DNA of 10,271 bases from an uncultured Eubacteriales bacterium (GTDB lineage: Bacteria; Bacillota; Clostridia; Lachnospirales; Lachnospiraceae). The notes beneath the pieces were generated by a model that had not been told where the DNA came from, made no database searches, and worked only from the letters and a program-made list of their open reading frames with translations. Positions 3,393 to 10,271 of the stretch are shown piece by piece. The stretch spans positions 1 through 10,271 of the forward strand of contig OMSZ01000068.1 of NCBI GenBank assembly GCA_900313855.1, given 5' to 3'. A program made the position numbers and the translations under genes. How positions within the stretch are numbered: the stretch's first letter is position 1; the number at the start of each line of letters is the position of its first letter.

Positions 3393-3410
3393 TTAAGGTA
3401 ACGTTAAGGT
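3393..3410 (+). promoter_or_regulatory. Tandem TTAAGGT repeat, candidate OmpR/PhoB-type operator
   Basis: Two identical heptamers TTAAGGT occur at 3393-3399 and 3404-3410, exactly 11 bp apart, and the second ends 8 bp before the predicted -35 box (3419). Direct repeats at one-helical-turn spacing upstream of a promoter are the standard binding layout for a dimer of OmpR/PhoB-family response regulators. Such a regulator is encoded at 4680-5363, but the pairing is inference. A single inverted copy (ACCTTAA, 4607-4613) lies upstream of that regulator's own predicted promoter. Confidence 0.5.
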
Positions 3411-3418
3411 TTGCCGAT

Positions 3419-3548: not shown

Positions 3549-4469
3549 ATGTGGGATAGAAAGAAATTAAAGGAAGTAGCAAAAGAGAAGTTTCAGGCAA
3601 ATTATTGGAAGTGTGTATTAGTAGCTTTATTGTTCTCTTTCATTATGGGAGGCATGGGAGCTTCAAGCGGATACCGGGGCAATTACAATTTTAACAATTT
3701 CGGTAATCACAGCATTAACAATTTATCTGATGATGATGATAAGGATGATGAGGATTTATTCGATGAGGATGATCCGGATGACGCTAAGGTAAAGGCTGCT
3801 TATGACAGTGCTTTGGGAAAGGATATCCGGGATGCGATTAAGGATGCCGACAAAGCCGACAAAGAAGCAAAAGAGGTTTTTGACAAGTTCAAGGATTTAA
3901 ATGGACCTGAAGTGGCAGCATTTATTGTATTAATAGTAATTGTTGTAACCATAATAGTACTTATAGCGATAGCAATTGGAATAGTGATCGATGCATTGCT
4001 TATCAATCCGATAGAGATCGGATGCGCAAAGTTCTTCTATAAGAACTTAAGTGAACCGGCTAACGTATCTAATGTAACCTGTGGTTTTGACTATGGTTAT
4101 AAGAACAACGTTAAGATCATGCTTTGGAGAGATGTATATACATTCCTCTGGTCATTGCTCTTAGTTATTCCTGGTATTGTTAAAAGCTACGAGTACAAAA
4201 TGATCCCTTATCTCTTGGCAGAGAATCCTGAGATGACTAAGGAAGAAGCTTTTGCAGAGAGTAAGAGAATGATGGATGGTCAGAAGTGGAAAGCATTTGT
4301 GTTAGATCTTTCCTTCATCGGATGGGATATCCTTTCAGGATTGTTTACAATGGGTCTTCTCTCAGTATTCTTCGTAGCACCTTATAAGAGATCAGCACAG
4401 GCAGCTCTTTATGATGCACTTAAATACGGACAGACTACAAGAAGCGAAAGTGAAGTAGCACCTATGTAA
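3549..4469 (+). CDS. DUF975 family integral membrane protein
   Basis: This 306-residue protein begins with the family-typical MWDRKKLKEVAKEKFQANYW and carries the conserved segment PGIVKSYEYKMIPYLLAENPEM (208-229). After that come an AxxSxxMMxGxKW stretch (236-247) and a C-terminal LSFIGWDILSGL/PYKRSAQAALYDALK region, all as in DUF975. Membrane segments are predicted at about 20-38, 123-152, 195-211 and 250-278. Between the first two lies a very acidic stretch (61-78, 14 of 18 residues Asp or Glu), then a charged, Lys/Asp/Ala-rich helical region (80-115); this long hydrophilic loop is the odd part of the protein. Its biochemical function is unknown, and family membership only says it is an inner-membrane protein. 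Start: ATG at 3549, 7 nt after a perfect AGGAGG (3536-3541). It forms its own transcription unit with a promoter, candidate operator and terminator, next to a two-component system that may control it. Confidence 0.9.
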   Translation: MWDRKKLKEVAKEKFQANYWKCVLVALLFSFIMGGMGASSGYRGNYNFNNFGNHSINNLSDDDDKDDEDLFDEDDPDDAKVKAAYDSALGKDIRDAIKDADKADKEAKEVFDKFKDLNGPEVAAFIVLIVIVVTIIVLIAIAIGIVIDALLINPIEIGCAKFFYKNLSEPANVSNVTCGFDYGYKNNVKIMLWRDVYTFLWSLLLVIPGIVKSYEYKMIPYLLAENPEMTKEEAFAESKRMMDGQKWKAFVLDLSFIGWDILSGLFTMGLLSVFFVAPYKRSAQAALYDALKYGQTTRSESEVAPM

Positions 4470-4531
4470 TACCTTAGGCGAAATGCTTTATCAATTAAAG
4501 ATTTAACTGACTGATATATTTTAAAACAGAG

Positions 4532-4571
4532 AATCTCTCTTATAGGTTAATGCTTATGAGAGAGATTTTTT
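4532..4571 (+). terminator. Intrinsic terminator of the DUF975 gene
   Basis: A long hairpin has outer arms AATCTCTCT (4532-4540) and AGAGAGATT (4559-4567). It continues inward through TATAGGT/GCTTATG, including T-G and G-T wobbles, to the 4-nt loop TAAT. A T-run to 4571 completes it. It lies about 60 nt past the DUF975 stop and separates that gene from the two-component operon. Confidence 0.9.
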
Positions 4572-4621
4572 GATTTGCAGCAGACTTTGTTTCCTGTAAA
4601 GCAAAAACCTTAAGTTCAGGG

Positions 4622-4650
4622 TGGAAAAATTACTTTATATGCATTACAAT
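4622..4650 (+). promoter_or_regulatory. Predicted promoter of the two-component/EAL/cellulase operon
   Basis: The -10 box TACAAT (4645-4650, 5 of 6) lies 17 bp after a -35-like TGGAAA (4622-4627, 4 of 6). A start near 4657 gives a leader of about 23 nt before the ATG, with AGGGGAGGAATT as ribosome binding region. A single ACCTTAA half-site (4607-4613) lies upstream, the inverse of the TTAAGGT heptamer near the neighbouring gene. The rest of 4572-4621 shows no structure I recognise. Confidence 0.45.
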
Positions 4651-4679
4651 TAGTATAGATAAATAGGGGAGGAATTCAA

Positions 4680-5363
4680 ATGAATTACAAAATACTTATC
4701 GCAGATGATGAGGCGGAGATCAGGGATCTCTTAAAGCTTTATCTGGAAAATGAAGGTTATAATGTAGTTGAAGCACAGGATGGCAGGGCGGCGTTAACTC
4801 TTCTTAGAAAAGAGAAGCCCGATCTTTGTGTATTAGATATTATGATGCCTGAGATGGACGGCTATCACGTATTGCAGGAGCTTAGAAAGGAAAGCAATAT
4901 TCCGGTTATTATTCTCTCGGCTAAGGATGCGGATTCGGAAAAGATATTAGGACTTAATCTAGGTGCCGACGATTATCTGGCAAAACCGTTTAATCCGCTA
5001 GAGGCAGTTGCGAGAGTTAATTCCAATATCAGAAGATTTTACAGATTAGGTGCTAATGAGGTTAAGGCAGAGGTTATCAAGGTTCGCGATCTTTCATTGG
5101 ATCCTGAAAGCTGTATCTTGAAAAAGGGCGATGAGACTATCGAGCTTACCTCTGTGGAGTACAAGATTATGGAGCTATTTATGACACATCCGAATAAGGT
5201 CTTTACCAAACAGCAGATATATGAGCACGGCTGGGGAGATGAATTCATAATAGCGGATAACAATATAATGGTTTGCATCAGTAAGCTAAGAAGCAAGTTG
5301 GATGAAGATCCATCAGCATATATTAAGACCTTAAGAGGTTTGGGTTATCGTTTGGAGAATTAA
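4680..5363 (+). CDS. OmpR/PhoB-family response regulator
   Basis: This 227-residue two-component response regulator is of the usual family length. The receiver domain (about 1-115) has the acidic pair Asp9-Asp10, the phospho-acceptor Asp53 (VLDIMMPEMDG), the switch serine Ser80 (IILSAKD) and Lys102 (LAKPF). The DNA-binding winged helix (about 130-227) shows LTSVEYKIMELF and ends in the canonical IKTLRGLGYRLEN. All residues needed for phosphorylation are present. By family it is phosphorylated by its partner kinase and binds tandem repeats as a dimer. Start: ATG at 4680, preceded by GGGGAGG (4666-4672). It is the first gene of a four-gene cluster, its TAA is followed directly by the kinase ATG, and the kinase ribosome binding site lies inside its last codons. 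Candidate targets are the TTAAGGT repeat before the DUF975 gene and possibly its own promoter. Signal and regulon are unknown. Confidence 0.96.
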   Translation: MNYKILIADDEAEIRDLLKLYLENEGYNVVEAQDGRAALTLLRKEKPDLCVLDIMMPEMDGYHVLQELRKESNIPVIILSAKDADSEKILGLNLGADDYLAKPFNPLEAVARVNSNIRRFYRLGANEVKAEVIKVRDLSLDPESCILKKGDETIELTSVEYKIMELFMTHPNKVFTKQQIYEHGWGDEFIIADNNIMVCISKLRSKLDEDPSAYIKTLRGLGYRLEN

Positions 5364-6566
5364 ATGGAGCAGGAAAAGAAATTACAGTTTTTTTTGATCA
5401 GGAAATTTATTATCACGCTTATTTTGGTGAGTGTGGTTGATTACGGCATACTCTGGTTTGTTAATCATCATATCATGCCGTTTATTCTTCGTGAATTTTT
5501 TCCCGGTTATGAAAGGGCGGAATTGATCAACGGAGGCACGGTCATATTATTGCTTATACTTGTAATTGCAGCGTTGATCATCGGGTTTATTAACATGATA
5601 ATTCCGAGCCAGATCAGTCGACCTGTTTCATGGCTTTCGGGAGTGCTGCAGGAAAAAAGCAGTAATACCGTTGTTCCTTCGGGCGGTAATGATATACTTG
5701 ATGGTTTGAGCGGTATGCAGCAGTTTGTGCTGGTTATGATCATAATCGGCATATCACTGCTGGTGGTTATGCCTTATGTGCTAGGCGCCATTTATTTTAC
5801 AAGGATTACGGTTAAAGAGTTCAATAAAATAGCTGAGGCAAGAGTCAATGCGAGAAAAGAATTTGAAAGAAGAAGAAATCTCATGCTTTCTGATATAGCG
5901 CATGATCTCAGAACGCCGATAACCACTGTTGCGGGATATTCAAAAGCGCTTTCTGACGGTATGGTTTCAGAGGAAAGGAAGCAGGAATATCTTGATGCGA
6001 TAATGGTCAAATCGGTAAGGATGAATGAGCTTATACAGCTTTTATTTGACTATGTGAAATTAGATAGCGAGGGCTTTATTCTTAATAAGCAGCCCGTTGA
6101 TATATACGAGCTTGTCAGAGAGTGCACAGCCTTGCAGTATTCTGATATAGAAGATGCAGGACTTGAACTTTCTGTGGATATTCCGGAGGAGAGTTTGAAA
6201 TTATCCGCAGATAAAATTCAGCTGTCGAGAGTTATCACCAATCTGATCACTAACGCTGTCAAACATAATCAAAAGGGTGATAAGATCGCACTTGTGGTAA
6301 AACGCGAAGAGGACAGACTTCTGATAATGGTGGCTGATACCGGAAGAAGAATTCCTGATGAAAAGGCGGAGCATCTCTTTGAGCCATTCATGATGGGAGA
6401 TGAATCAAGGAACAGCAAGGGTGGTACAGGTCTTGGTCTTTCAATTGCGAAGAAGATCGTGGAAATGCACGGTTATACGATACGTCTTGTTCAGCAGCCG
6501 GATATAGTAAGATATAAACCGGTTGAGAAATATGTTAAGATGTTTATGATCACTATTAAATTATAA
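5364..6566 (+). CDS. Membrane sensor histidine kinase with an altered G1 box
   Basis: This 400-residue HisKA/HATPase_c kinase is the partner of the preceding regulator. Three clear hydrophobic segments lie at about 12-33, 58-80 and 120-145. An odd number does not settle the topology, since the catalytic part must be cytoplasmic. There is no large extracellular sensor domain; the outer loop between the first two segments is only about 24 residues, which suggests sensing in or near the membrane. The H-box is DIAHDLRTPITTVAGYSKAL with phospho-acceptor His180, and the N-box is NLITNAVKHN (293-302). The G1 box reads DTGRRIP (325-331), so the usual second glycine of DxGxG is Arg329 (codon AGA, one transition from GGA). 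The F-region and G2 box (GGTGLGLS, 353-360) are normal. ATG at 5364 abuts the upstream stop, and GGAG at 5354-5357 inside the regulator gene is its ribosome binding site. Activity may be reduced or biased, but this cannot be told from sequence. Confidence 0.95.
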   Translation: MEQEKKLQFFLIRKFIITLILVSVVDYGILWFVNHHIMPFILREFFPGYERAELINGGTVILLLILVIAALIIGFINMIIPSQISRPVSWLSGVLQEKSSNTVVPSGGNDILDGLSGMQQFVLVMIIIGISLLVVMPYVLGAIYFTRITVKEFNKIAEARVNARKEFERRRNLMLSDIAHDLRTPITTVAGYSKALSDGMVSEERKQEYLDAIMVKSVRMNELIQLLFDYVKLDSEGFILNKQPVDIYELVRECTALQYSDIEDAGLELSVDIPEESLKLSADKIQLSRVITNLITNAVKHNQKGDKIALVVKREEDRLLIMVADTGRRIPDEKAEHLFEPFMMGDESRNSKGGTGLGLSIAKKIVEMHGYTIRLVQQPDIVRYKPVEKYVKMFMITIKL

Positions 6567-6582
6567 GGAGGGGGGATAGCCA

Positions 6583-8484
6583 ATGAATGCGACAAACGAA
6601 TTTCATATAGCATTTTATGCGGCAACACTGACTATCTGCGTTACGGTATTATTGTTTACCGTACTTCAAAAAAGGACGGATCGTGTTCAGAACAGATTAT
6701 TCATAGGTATGATGCTTATATTGATGGCTAATGCAATATCGACAACTGGTGCAGCTCTTTCTGAGCCGTATGCGTTGGAGAGTCCGGTGGCTTATGTTGT
6801 TTTGGAAATGAGTCAGTTGTTCTATTTTCTATTGCATACGATGCTTTGTCCGCTGCTCTATTATTATGTGTTAAGTGTTACGGGAGCTATAAGAAAGCGG
6901 TCAATAGCTGTTAATATAATATTTGGACTGCCGCTTATCATAACAGAGGTTTTTGTTGTGATCAATCCGTTTTTTCATCAGGTTTATTATTATGATTCTT
7001 CAATGCAGTTCCACAGGAATTGGGCGGAGTATCTGATATACGGAGCTGCGGGTCTGTATTTTATACTGGCCATGAGCGAGCTTCTGTTTTCATGGAATGC
7101 GATAACAATGAGAAGACGTATAGCGCTCATTTATTTCTTTGTTTTATCGCTTGCCGGAATATTGATCCAGCTGTTTAACATTGATATTAAGGCAGAGCTT
7201 TTTTCTGAGTCGATAGCTTTAATGGGAGTTATGCTTGCTGTGGAAAGTGAGGATGACAGGATTGATTCCGACACGGGCATATACAATCGTAAGGCATTGC
7301 AGATGGATATCCACAATTTCATGATGATGAAGGAAAATGTTAAAATAATATTTATCAAGATCATTAATGCTGATATGGTTGAGAGAGTTACGGGATCTGC
7401 TAATCATGATATTATGTCTGAGATGATTTCGGATTATCTGAAAACTGTCGTACCGCGCTATTATATATATCATCCGAATCCGGAAACATTTGTTGTTACC
7501 TGTCCGGGTTACAGCGAGAAAAGGGTTGAGGAGATATTGACCGCGATCAGAATCCGGTTCGAGGAGGATTGGATAATTGCCAATATGCCTGTTTTATTAA
7601 ATGCGGCTGTGGTTGATTCGTCTATCCCGGGTGATATCAGTACTGTTGAAGATGTGCTGTTTATTTCAGACAGTATTATTCCGGCTAACATCAACAAAGA
7701 GGATGTGAGCATCGGATGGCTGATGCGCAGGGCAGAGATAGAGCGCGCTATCAGAAGGAGTTTAAGGGAAAACAAATTTGAGGTTTATTATCAGCCTACA
7801 TATGATCTGATCGGACCGATGCTGCATGGGGCAGAGGCATTAGTAAGGATGAATGATGAGTCCATAGGCTTTGTTTCCCCTGATGAGTTCATTCCTGTAG
7901 CAGAGCAGATCGGTCTTGTTGAGGAGATAGATGATTTCGTGCTTAAAGAGGTGTGCAGCTTCATCGAAAGCGGTATACCCGAAGAGCGTGGTATGGACTG
8001 TATAAATGTCAATCTTTCCGTGGTTCAATGTATAAGACCCGGCTTTACGGAGCATATAATAGGTATAGTCAATGAGTATAAGATCAAACATTCAATGATC
8101 AATTTTGAGATTACAGAATCTGTAGGAGCTGAGGATTACAAGGTTCTTTCGCTGGTTACCAAATTGCTCAAGGCTCAGGGCTTTATGTTGTCTATGGATG
8201 ATTATGGAACGGGTTATTCGAACATGGAGGGCATATTCGCTCTAGATTTTGATGTTGTTAAGATTGACAAGAGTATTCTCTGGAGCGCCGAGAATAATTC
8301 TAACGGAAGAATAATACTTAAAAACAGTGTTAATATGATACATGATCTTGGCTGTAAAGTATTGGTCGAGGGAGTGGAGAAGAAGGAGCATATCGAGATG
8401 CTCAGATCACTCGGAGCGGATTATCTTCAGGGATTCTTCTTCTCGAAGCCGGTGCCGAAGGTTAAGTTTTTGGAGATTATATAA
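6583..8484 (+). CDS. Multi-TM degenerate GGDEF/EAL protein, predicted c-di-GMP phosphodiesterase
   Basis: This 633-residue protein has an N-terminal membrane region of about seven hydrophobic helices (roughly 8-28, 38-58, 70-97, 108-130, 148-170, 178-200, 207-220), which puts the C-terminal domains in the cytoplasm. A GGDEF-like fold follows (about 222-385). It keeps the entry motif SDTGIYNRKAL (229-239), but the signature loop reads NPETF (299-303), so it should not make c-di-GMP. The EAL domain (about 386-633) is intact: YYQP (402-405), EALVR (Glu418-Arg422), NVNLS (Asn477), FEITES (Glu509), DDYGTGYSN (Asp539-Asp540), KIDKS (Lys560-Asp562), VEGVE (Glu596) and QGFFFSKP (Gln616). By family it hydrolyses c-di-GMP to pGpG. 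Start: ATG at 6583, 7 nt after a very strong AAGGAGGGGGG (6565-6575) that follows the kinase stop. The 16- and 12-nt gaps on its two sides place it in one operon with the two-component system and the cellulase. The membrane part may be a ligand sensor. Confidence 0.93.
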   Translation: MNATNEFHIAFYAATLTICVTVLLFTVLQKRTDRVQNRLFIGMMLILMANAISTTGAALSEPYALESPVAYVVLEMSQLFYFLLHTMLCPLLYYYVLSVTGAIRKRSIAVNIIFGLPLIITEVFVVINPFFHQVYYYDSSMQFHRNWAEYLIYGAAGLYFILAMSELLFSWNAITMRRRIALIYFFVLSLAGILIQLFNIDIKAELFSESIALMGVMLAVESEDDRIDSDTGIYNRKALQMDIHNFMMMKENVKIIFIKIINADMVERVTGSANHDIMSEMISDYLKTVVPRYYIYHPNPETFVVTCPGYSEKRVEEILTAIRIRFEEDWIIANMPVLLNAAVVDSSIPGDISTVEDVLFISDSIIPANINKEDVSIGWLMRRAEIERAIRRSLRENKFEVYYQPTYDLIGPMLHGAEALVRMNDESIGFVSPDEFIPVAEQIGLVEEIDDFVLKEVCSFIESGIPEERGMDCINVNLSVVQCIRPGFTEHIIGIVNEYKIKHSMINFEITESVGAEDYKVLSLVTKLLKAQGFMLSMDDYGTGYSNMEGIFALDFDVVKIDKSILWSAENNSNGRIILKNSVNMIHDLGCKVLVEGVEKKEHIEMLRSLGADYLQGFFFSKPVPKVKFLEII

Positions 8485-8496
8485 AGGAGTTATGAG

Positions 8497-10161
8497 ATGG
8501 GTGCGGGTAAGAAAAGATTAATTTTTACAGGAGTGGTTTTAGCTGCGATCATTGTTTTGTTTGTTGGAATAGGCATAGGGCGTAGAGCAAATAATAATAG
8601 TCAGACGACAGAGGCGGATGTTGTTAACGATACCGGTATTGAGAAGACGGATAGTGTTACCGAAACAGACAATAGCGTTGATGATAATGCTGATAGTGCA
8701 GATGAGCAGGATGATTCAGGTGCTTTCGAATATGAGGTGACACAGAACCAATCGTCATCATGGGAGCAGGACGGGAAGTACGTTGCACAGTTTGATATTG
8801 TGTTAAAAAACAATTCTTCTGAGGCTCTTAGTGACTGGAAGCTTACATTTGATAATGTAAATGATGCTGAAATATTAACCGGATGGAATGGCAAATTTGA
8901 GATAAGCGGTGGGGTTCTTACCATCACTCCTGAAAGCTATAATGGTACGGTTGAACCTAATACGTCTGTTGATTGTGGAGTTCAGATCAAATTCGCGGAT
9001 GAGGCGTCGGCAGGTAAGGTGTCAAAGAACGGCAGCCTTTATATTGCGGGAAAACAGGCGGATGTATCAAAAATGCAGGCAGCCGGATCAGGTGATGGGG
9101 CAGATGGCGACAAGGCTTTAAATGCTGATAATAAAGCTGCAAGTTCGGATAATGATAGTAATAGTAAGAATAAGGATGCCGTTGATAGTGATACGGCTGT
9201 AGACGATAATGAAAGCGGAACGGCGCGCGGAAAGAAAGTAGTGGCAGAAACAGGAACCCCATTTGCCAACCACGGCGCGCTGTCTGTCAAAGGAACGGAT
9301 CTTGTCGATAAGTCGGGCAAACAGTATCAGTTAAAAGGTGTCAGCACTCACGGTCTTGCATGGTTTCCTGATTACGTGAACAAGGATGCATTTGCCACAT
9401 TTCGTGATGACTGGGGAGCAAATGTAATAAGACTTGCAATGTATACCGATGAGGGCGGAGGATATTGTACTGACGGTAATAAGGACAACTTGAAGAAGCT
9501 GGTAAAGAAGGGTATTGATGAGGCTACAGAGCTTGGAATGTATGTTATTGTAGACTGGCATATCCTTCACGACCTTACACCGCTTAAGTATGAAAATGAA
9601 GCCAAGAAATTCTTTGAGGAGTTCTCTTCCGAATATAAAGACAGTGATAATATCATTTATGAGATATGTAATGAGCCTAATGGTGGTACGGGATGGGCAG
9701 ATGTCAAGAAATACGCTGAGGATATCATTCCGATCATCAGAAAAAATGATGACAATGCGATAATTGTTGTCGGCACTCCGACATGGTCTCAGGATGTTGA
9801 TGAAGCGGCTAAGGATCCTATAAAGGGATATGATAATATAATGTATACCCTGCATTTCTATGCGGCAACACATAAGGATGATCTCAGAAAGAAATTGACC
9901 AAGGCTAAAAATTCCGGTCTGCCAATATTCATTACCGAGTTCTCGATATGTGAAGCTTCGGGTAATGGCTCTGTCGATTATGATTCCGCCAATGCTTGGT
10001 TTGATCTTATAAGTGAGAACAATCTTTCGTATTGCGCATGGAATGTGTCTAACAAGGACGAGAAATCTTCACTGATAAAGAGTAATGTATCCAAGAAATC
10101 CGGATGGAGTGAGGATGATCTTTCGGAGACCGGTGTCTATATAAAAAAGCAGATGAAGTGA
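8497..10161 (+). CDS. Membrane-anchored cellulase: TM anchor, CBM2-like module, GH5 catalytic domain
   Basis: This 554-residue predicted endo-beta-1,4-glucanase is complete. After MGAGKKR a hydrophobic helix (8-28) acts as export signal. It lacks an AxA-type cleavage site or lipobox, so the enzyme is probably anchored with its C-terminus outside. An acidic linker (about 31-75) leads to a CBM2-like cellulose-binding module (about 77-186) with Trp89, Trp114, Trp130 in GWNGKF and Tyr148 in YNGTVEPN. A second Ser/Asp/Asn-rich linker (about 195-252) precedes GH5, subfamily 2-like (about 256-552): LKGVSTHGLAWFPDYVN, DWHIL (353-357), ICNEPNG with acid/base Glu393, LHFYAATH, and ITEFS with nucleophile Glu481. 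The family cleaves cellulose and related beta-glucans by a retaining mechanism. Start: ATG at 8497, 7 nt after AAGGAG; an ATG at 8492 is out of frame. It is the last gene of the two-component/EAL operon and is followed by a terminator. Substrate range is inferred only. Confidence 0.95.
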   Translation: MGAGKKRLIFTGVVLAAIIVLFVGIGIGRRANNNSQTTEADVVNDTGIEKTDSVTETDNSVDDNADSADEQDDSGAFEYEVTQNQSSSWEQDGKYVAQFDIVLKNNSSEALSDWKLTFDNVNDAEILTGWNGKFEISGGVLTITPESYNGTVEPNTSVDCGVQIKFADEASAGKVSKNGSLYIAGKQADVSKMQAAGSGDGADGDKALNADNKAASSDNDSNSKNKDAVDSDTAVDDNESGTARGKKVVAETGTPFANHGALSVKGTDLVDKSGKQYQLKGVSTHGLAWFPDYVNKDAFATFRDDWGANVIRLAMYTDEGGGYCTDGNKDNLKKLVKKGIDEATELGMYVIVDWHILHDLTPLKYENEAKKFFEEFSSEYKDSDNIIYEICNEPNGGTGWADVKKYAEDIIPIIRKNDDNAIIVVGTPTWSQDVDEAAKDPIKGYDNIMYTLHFYAATHKDDLRKKLTKAKNSGLPIFITEFSICEASGNGSVDYDSANAWFDLISENNLSYCAWNVSNKDEKSSLIKSNVSKKSGWSEDDLSETGVYIKKQMK

Positions 10162-10171
10162 AATAATTTTG

Positions 10172-10217
10172 AAAAGAGAGATCTCAGATTAATAATCTGA
10201 GATTCCTCTCTTTTTTT
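10172..10217 (+). terminator. Intrinsic terminator after the cellulase gene
   Basis: A perfect 10-bp stem ATCTCAGATT (10181-10190)/AATCTGAGAT (10194-10203) has a 3-nt loop. It extends past a 2-nt bulge through GAGAG (10176-10180)/CTCTC (10206-10210) and A-run/T-run pairing, and ends in TTTTTTT (10211-10217). The A-run at 10172-10175 could let it work in both directions. From 10218 to the right edge I see no gene, only a short palindrome TTCATATATGAA (10238-10249). Confidence 0.93.
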
Positions 10218-10271
10218 CCACATCTCTGTTCTATTAATTCATATATGAACTTTGATTCTCTCTCATTAATC

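Follow-up and report, generated by a model that had tools for sequence, protein, structure and literature searches.

According to the available excerpts of the reports cited, the regulator of the Xanthomonas RpfC/RpfG two-component system is itself an HD-GYP phosphodiesterase that acts on enzyme genes through Clp (PMC3749722), and the clostridial endoglucanase CcsZ, a member of glycoside hydrolase subfamily GH5_25, is encoded in the ccsZABHI locus, where it lies with cellulose synthase (PMC7710045). On cellulose, Fibrobacter succinogenes contained about 2.5-fold more cyclic di-GMP (c-di-GMP), and its up-regulated GGDEF genes are described as lying outside any operon with a kinase (PMC6851124). 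The box of the streptococcal CiaRH system is given as TTTAAG-N5-TTTAAG (PMC3091779). The locus considered here is a row of four genes for an OmpR-family response regulator (RR), a histidine kinase (HK), an EAL protein predicted to be a c-di-GMP phosphodiesterase and a predicted membrane-anchored GH5 endoglucanase. It lies on contig OMSZ01000068.1 of assembly GCA_900313855.1, from an uncultured Eubacteriales bacterium of the Lachnospiraceae. The window analysed is this whole contig (G000:C216; 10,271 bases), with what follows its last hairpin beyond view; the source genome (G000; other genomes are numbered likewise) is a 2.2-Mb draft of 425 contigs that is 80% complete.

The row is genuine and operon-like; its parts are ordinary, and its order is new within the searches made. 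No full row turned up in the 25 other genomes searched within the genus, and a search of titles and abstract beginnings, with subscription journals mostly outside it, returned no report of this gene arrangement. We give slightly better than even credence to the reading that the row is a lineage-specific, probably recently assembled operon, in which the regulator-kinase pair of a cassette that also includes a DUF975 membrane protein gene is co-transcribed with an EAL phosphodiesterase and an anchored cellulase.

Structure of the four-gene row

An earlier note on the window had described regulator, kinase, EAL and GH5 genes on one strand, separated by 0, 16 and 12 nt, enclosed by two strong terminators and forming one apparent operon. 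Open reading frames and Pfam domains confirm the order and the gaps, folds at both ends confirm the terminators as terminator-like hairpins, and gene distances and terminators together support the operon in G000. The genes, all on the plus strand, encode the RR (4680-5363; 227 aa; Pfam Response_reg 3.7e-33, Trans_reg_C 1e-23), the membrane-bound HK (5364-6566; 400 aa; Pfam HisKA and HATPase_c), the EAL protein (6583-8484; 633 aa; Pfam EAL 2.2e-60) and the endoglucanase (8497-10161; 554 aa; Pfam CBM_2 1e-11, Cellulase/GH5 6.7e-68). One hairpin (4527-4572, plus strand; -27.7 kcal/mol, z -7.9 over 4525-4580) separates the regulator gene from the upstream DUF975 gene (3549-4469, plus strand; Pfam PF06161, E 1.7e-22), and another closes the unit (10171-10215, plus strand; -22.5 kcal/mol, z -5.5 over 10166-10220). 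Of the three junctions, folding covered the two with a gap, and neither HK-EAL (z +1.2) nor EAL-GH5 (z +1.1) showed a strong fold. The 16-nt gap between kinase and EAL genes holds a purine-rich, ribosome-site-like stretch. With a hairpin before the RR gene, none after the HK gene and the EAL gene starting 16 nt on, the regulator and kinase genes seem joined into a unit with the EAL and GH5 genes. Rfam gave no match at gathering thresholds.

The single promoter of the earlier note fared less well. A candidate site exists (TGGAAA-17-TACAAT, 4622-4650, plus strand; 9/12 match), and by itself it is not above chance, with 41 matches of that quality or better in the window vs 30.6 +/- 7.5 in shuffles; a better-scoring site stands before the EAL gene, and the single-promoter part of the claim is weak. 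Between hairpin and candidate promoter lies a 21-base stretch (4584-4604; ACTTTGTTTCCTGTAAAGCAA) with 18/21 matches before DUF975 in G011 (L098) and on another G000 contig (L043, before position 287), which is perhaps a small dispersed element.

The regulator-kinase cassette and its predicted box

The pair is of the OmpR type by Pfam, with a receiver and winged-helix regulator adjoining a HisKA/HATPase kinase. The regulator is 89-94% identical in five congeners. The kinase has hydrophobic segments at residues 15-33, 58-76 and 111-150, and no extracellular sensor domain was recognised before HisKA from Pfam or hydrophobicity. Kinase relatives of at least 68% identity occur in 6 of the 26 genomes of the genus (own included), with one more near full-length relative at 41%. 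Gene neighbourhoods were read for the six other near full-length relatives, with genes in relatives called by a simple longest-frame method rather than annotation. AspS, DUF975, RR and HK follow one another in G016, G002 and G011, as do DUF975, RR and HK in G015, and neither EAL nor GH5 follows the kinase at these cassettes. The distance from DUF975 to RR is 18-23 nt in G002, G016 and G015 and about 550 nt in G011. In G000, DUF975 also directly precedes the pair on the same strand, but with a 210-nt gap and the hairpin between. A hairpin lies directly 3' of the kinase gene in G002, G011 and G006, and none does in G000.

Beyond the genus, a related kinase was found at E 1e-60 in 16 of 396 genomes of other genera, in 397-genome searches that scored at most three or four candidates per genome. 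DUF975, RR and HK stand together at 13 of these 16 loci (16 genomes, 12 other genera), and the gene after the kinase is EAL, GGDEF or GH5 at none of the 16; at one locus (L260) an EAL gene lies two genes beyond the kinase, on the opposite strand. Judged by gene order, the pair belongs to an older DUF975-RR-HK cassette of several Lachnospiraceae genera.

Comparison of DUF975 upstream regions yielded a predicted regulator box, TTAAGGT-N4-TTAAGRTT, a direct repeat with an 11-bp period. The window has it at 3393-3411 on the plus strand (TTAAGGTAACGTTAAGGTT) with 0 mismatches, 156 nt before the DUF975 gene. Exact copies in 921 kb of DNA searched number five in 5 genomes, all before DUF975-RR-HK, and the same DNA holds no one-mismatch copy. 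Seven whole genomes contain nine exact copies, six of them before DUF975 (G000, G016, G002, G011, G015 and G021) and two in front of an exporter's ABC ATPase gene (G016, and G000 at G000:C39:6683-6701, L174 6683). The ninth, in G006, is some 240 bases from the end of a contig, next to an SPFH gene that is 77-79% identical to the SPFH gene flanking the exporter in G000 and G016. The ABC/HlyD/MacB (MacAB-like) make-up of the exporter was domain-tested in G016; the exporter genes of G002 and G011 are 62-90% identical to those of G016, and the G000 contig carries only the ATPase gene (92% to G016). One-mismatch copies in the seven genomes number 14. The exporter ATPase gene of G021 (93%) has one in front of it, G002 and G011 each have one placed a gene ahead of the exporter, and another precedes a DUF975 paralog (G015); of the ten others, eight were examined, six being inside genes and two intergenic elsewhere. 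A reversed control pattern gave 7 matches vs 23 for the box in the whole genomes. In other genera, 8 of the 13 cassette loci have a box within 2 mismatches, 70-178 nt before DUF975.

Before the four-gene unit (4470-4679) there is no such box, the best match there having five mismatches, the commonest background value. Because the promoter region of the unit is without a box, direct control of the EAL or GH5 gene by the regulator is unsupported. The presence of the box before DUF975 and the exporter, and not at the unit promoter, favours envelope-type sensing over the sensing of cellulose. We infer from this an autoregulated, envelope-type two-component system whose targets would include the exporter and which would not be a cellulose sensor. 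The cassette with its clean predicted box is the more transferable result, and its predicted regulon is directly testable.

The EAL protein and the cellulase

The EAL motifs are intact and align with those of the phosphodiesterase PaMorA. Residues E418, N477, E509, D539, D540, K560, E596 and Q616 are invariant in a seven-sequence alignment, and the catalytic set that we take to be expected of an EAL phosphodiesterase is Glu, Asn, Asp-Asp, Lys and Gln. By fold and motifs the protein would class as such an enzyme. The GGDEF-like part is degenerate, with NPETF at the place of the active-site motif in all seven sequences, and Pfam GGDEF matches (best E 0.021) occur in four of the seven members and not in the window protein. 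Without a GGDEF/GGEEF motif the protein does not class as a diguanylate cyclase. A structural model (mean pLDDT 79, seven sequences) has seven long N-terminal helices followed by GGDEF-like and EAL folds; among solved structures, Foldseek places the GGDEF-EAL proteins PA0575 and MorA closest. The protein is thus probably a membrane-bound, one-way c-di-GMP phosphodiesterase. By this gene, the nearest named records are both from Lachnospiraceae: RGIG4480, an isolate from roe deer omasum (75%), and strain NC2004 (69%). In NC2004 (L117 8476-11902) the ortholog lies behind an ECF sigma gene and a gene for a 288-aa protein with one hydrophobic region, and genes for an ECF sigma factor and a one-pass membrane protein are also near the EAL gene in G006. 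A fragment on G016:C24 (L051 8880-9236) that is 82% identical to residues 335-449 is apparently the remnant of a lost copy. G000 has at least 27 GGDEF and 16 EAL-type matches among those listed, partly overlapping.

The cellulase consists of one N-terminal hydrophobic anchor (residues 9-27), a CBM2 and a GH5 catalytic domain. The catalytic domain is closest to the solved structures 6gjf and 3pzt and far from 6uje, which we take to be CcsZ; it is nearest to Cel5A-type endoglucanases, and the labels Cel5A and GH5_2 for its type and subfamily are likewise our assumption. The window gene is not in a cellulose synthase locus, where a CcsZ/BcsZ gene would be expected. The CelA model TIGR03030, run without a clostridial synthase as control, exceeded its cut-off in none of 26 genomes; eight of them had weak matches, none above 30 bits, and G000 (80% complete), G006 and G002 had no match at E 0.001; in a 14-genome control the cut-off was exceeded in one.

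The GH5 ortholog in G002 and G011 (86-88% in the catalytic part) stands alone. Other relatives with GH5 and CBM2 within the genus are 46-59% identical over the aligned part, and most stand in an apparent housekeeping row of recG, GH5, an rsmD-type methyltransferase gene and a coaD-type gene, a row domain-tested in G010 only and elsewhere judged from gene sizes. The short names rsmD and coaD are presumptive, taken from Pfam matches. At the G010 relative, a cellulose synthase locus was considered and rejected, as the neighbours are recG, fatty-acid-kinase-type, Asp23, rsmD-type methyltransferase and coaD-type genes.

A c-di-GMP gene stands immediately beside GH5 at 3 of 37 loci of the genus (G000, G006 and, with a GGDEF gene, G001) and at none of 50 loci of other genera, such neighbours being recognised by phmmer with few seed sequences, so that distant ones may be missed. 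The 37 come from a list of 42 GH5 genes in the genus, given in 44 rows as two rows are second pieces; G000:C389 is not among the 37, nor are GH5 genes located within very long frames in G011, G002, G025 and G022. The 50 are part of a list from 118 of 397 genomes. At the density of G000, about 0.9-1.7 such neighbours would be expected by chance in 37 loci (1900-2300 genes assumed), so that the adjacency in itself is unsurprising. The three adjacencies probably have two independent origins, and the EAL-GH5 adjacency in two species is mildly surprising. The third case, on G001:C8 (L112 5801-8571), is a GH5 gene with a C-terminal CBM-like part; a gene for a GGDEF diguanylate cyclase begins 14 nt beyond it.

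A second GH5 gene of G000 (G000:C389, L115 134-4440) is grouped with genes for an L,D-transpeptidase and a dCache-GGDEF protein. Comparison of L115, L114, L242, L243 and L230 indicates that G006 (with an additional gene), G002, G011 and, judged from a partial gene, probably G007 have this order too. Both listed GH5 genes of G000 are thus near c-di-GMP genes, one degrading and one making the messenger; a third, weaker Pfam GH5 match (G000:C110) is outside this statement. The second GH5 carries fn3 in G006, and at 20 of 21 loci of the genus the next gene falls within one similarity cluster, whose member in G000 and G006 is an L,D-transpeptidase with choline-binding repeats and which includes other choline-binding proteins.

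Elsewhere in the window, at 773-1448, is a nucleotidyltransferase and substrate-binding gene pair that resembles a toxin-antitoxin pair of the MntA-HepT type. The DNA at about 700-1480 is about 98-100% identical to G011, vs 92% in the block before and 82% in the block after, which looks like a recent transfer; the pair is not found before aspS in G002.

Origin of the row and known systems

The arrangement in G006 bears most closely on how the row may have arisen. There, EAL and GH5 are adjacent, 44 nt apart, and RR-HK lies 3.4 kb away on the other strand, with genes for an ECF sigma factor, a one-pass membrane protein and an ATPase-type protein between; read by eye, only the last DUF975 codons seem left before the RR gene. 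The ECF sigma and membrane protein genes were rejected as an explanation of the arrangement, the 413-aa protein having no match at E 1e-15 in G000. The earlier note had held that relatives in which the four genes are never adjacent would speak for chance proximity; this applies to the four genes across the 25 other genomes searched, but not to the EAL-GH5 pair, which is adjacent in G006.

In the favoured reading, an old autoregulated DUF975-RR-HK cassette would control itself and a MacAB-like exporter in response to envelope or antimicrobial-type stress. The terminator at 4527-4572 would have cut RR-HK off from the boxed DUF975 promoter, and the pair would now share a transcript with the EAL phosphodiesterase and the CBM2-GH5 endoglucanase, the gene order in G000 being the derived one. 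The EAL protein would lower c-di-GMP, and the cellulase would act on plant cellulose at the cell surface. When the operon is on, kinase, regulator, lower c-di-GMP and surface cellulase would likely be gained jointly, favouring detachment from, or movement along, spent fibre over firm biofilm. A special sensor-to-cellulase circuit is possible. If co-transcribed, the row would be a Gram-positive example of c-di-GMP turnover and a surface cellulase in one operon, and the sister species offer a natural series: RR-HK without a tail, the EAL-GH5 pair nearby, and all four genes.

Several observations weigh against this reading. The full order is present in one genome only, where an assembly join is possible, though a break is not visible. 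G016 likewise is without a hairpin after the kinase gene, so that this sign is not peculiar to G000. The envelope-stress role would rest on neighbours and box, and a box within 2 mismatches was not found at 5 of the 13 DUF975 loci of other genera. A promoter-like site (TTGAGA-16-TATGAT, 6523-6550, plus strand; 10/12 match) within the 3' end of the kinase gene ends 32 nt 5' of the EAL gene; it is possibly an internal transcription start and may be chance. In G021, RR-HK is followed 47 nt on, on the same strand, by a gene for an EAL-kinase hybrid, which hints at a recurrent rather than accidental link between the two-component system and EAL proteins.

A further reading is that the RR-HK pair repeatedly recruits phosphodiesterase genes 3' of itself and that one rumen-type lineage also captured a surface cellulase, an envelope signal then setting c-di-GMP and cellulose attack through one transcript. 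If true, cells would loosen their hold while cutting fibre. We regard this as doubtful. No strong hairpin separates HK and hybrid in G021, where the hybrid is 35% identical in the EAL-protein part and is followed by another EAL protein and a receiver protein. Two different EAL genes thus follow RR-HK at two of the six loci with a kinase of at least 68% identity (G000 and G021), which by post hoc arithmetic is unlikely by chance, as EAL genes make up less than 1% of all genes. A recurrent cluster elsewhere (L044 5849-12513, L046 1980-8475, L047-L050) comprises a hybrid of about 1260 aa that joins the EAL-protein architecture to a kinase, an EAL protein whose catalytic motif is altered in L046, and a receiver protein about 254 aa long; the hybrid of L041 seems, by eye, to continue through receiver and HPt-like parts. 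Long frames of about 1040-1320 aa, considered as EAL-GH5 fusions, proved to be EAL-kinase hybrids among the matches listed.

The earlier note had proposed a dedicated module linking attachment or biofilm state to cellulose breakdown; spelled out as a circuit, the kinase would sense attachment or cellulose, the regulator activate its own operon, the EAL protein lower c-di-GMP and the cellulase digest fibre. The tight gene spacing, the EAL-GH5 pair kept in G006 despite different surroundings and the different EAL proteins behind RR-HK in G000 and G021 speak for such a circuit, and to that extent the functional proposal keeps some ground. The module itself is not supported, with the four genes together in no other searched genome, the box marking the DUF975 cassette and exporter instead of the unit promoter, and the kinase without a recognised extracellular sensor domain. 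Two further signs weakened under background controls. Positions 4630-4650 upstream of the G000 RR gene match the EAL upstream region of G006 at 18/21. Of 12,000 random upstream pairs, among them orthologous ones, 93 score as high or higher, and three further regions also give 18 with the G000 region, at different positions; a shared promoter was rejected. A weak box-like repeat (3 mismatches) 96 nt before the G006 EAL gene was rejected as background, since 21 of 311 upstream regions, itself included, match equally or better. A dedicated circuit is unlikely.

We hold it similarly improbable that the genes are together by chance, with EAL and GH5 as a separate transcription unit started inside the kinase gene. 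The site at 6523-6550 would supply such a start, and the genus is rich in c-di-GMP genes, with the three GH5 neighbours to be set against the 0.9-1.7 expected. Promoter-like sites are near chance density, however, and this one is within conserved kinase coding sequence, whereas the 16-nt gap, the ribosome-site-like stretch and the missing hairpin argue for read-through. That the cellulase trims a self-made cellulose matrix while the EAL protein shuts synthesis down would suit dispersal and has a model in the anchored GH5 endoglucanase CcsZ, encoded within a cellulose synthase locus (PMC7710045, available excerpt), but is very improbable, since no cellulose synthase exceeded the TIGR03030 cut-off in the 26 genomes, the catalytic domain has 3pzt as a close structure and 6uje as a distant one, and the domain-tested relative in G010 is not beside a synthase.

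Set beside the described systems, as far as the available excerpts present them, the row read here as a recently assembled operon resembles each in part. Like RpfC/RpfG and EngXCA of Xanthomonas, it brings together a two-component system, c-di-GMP degradation and an extracellular endoglucanase; unlike them, it has an OmpR-type DNA-binding regulator and a separate EAL phosphodiesterase, and the link is co-location only (PMC3749722). It shares with CcsZ a membrane-anchored GH5 endoglucanase in a Gram-positive anaerobe and a c-di-GMP theme, but the window enzyme has a CBM2 and is nearest other GH5 structures, and a synthase was not detected (PMC7710045). The predicted box is, like that of CiaRH, an 11-bp direct repeat of the TTAAG type for a response regulator (PMC3091779), but it reads TTAAGGT-N4-TTAAGRTT and is tied to DUF975 and a MacAB-like exporter, and the likeness is no evidence of orthology. 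With F. succinogenes the locus has in common the c-di-GMP theme in a rumen cellulose degrader, where the level shifts on cellulose; the enzyme linked to the cellulase here, in contrast, would lower c-di-GMP (PMC6851124).

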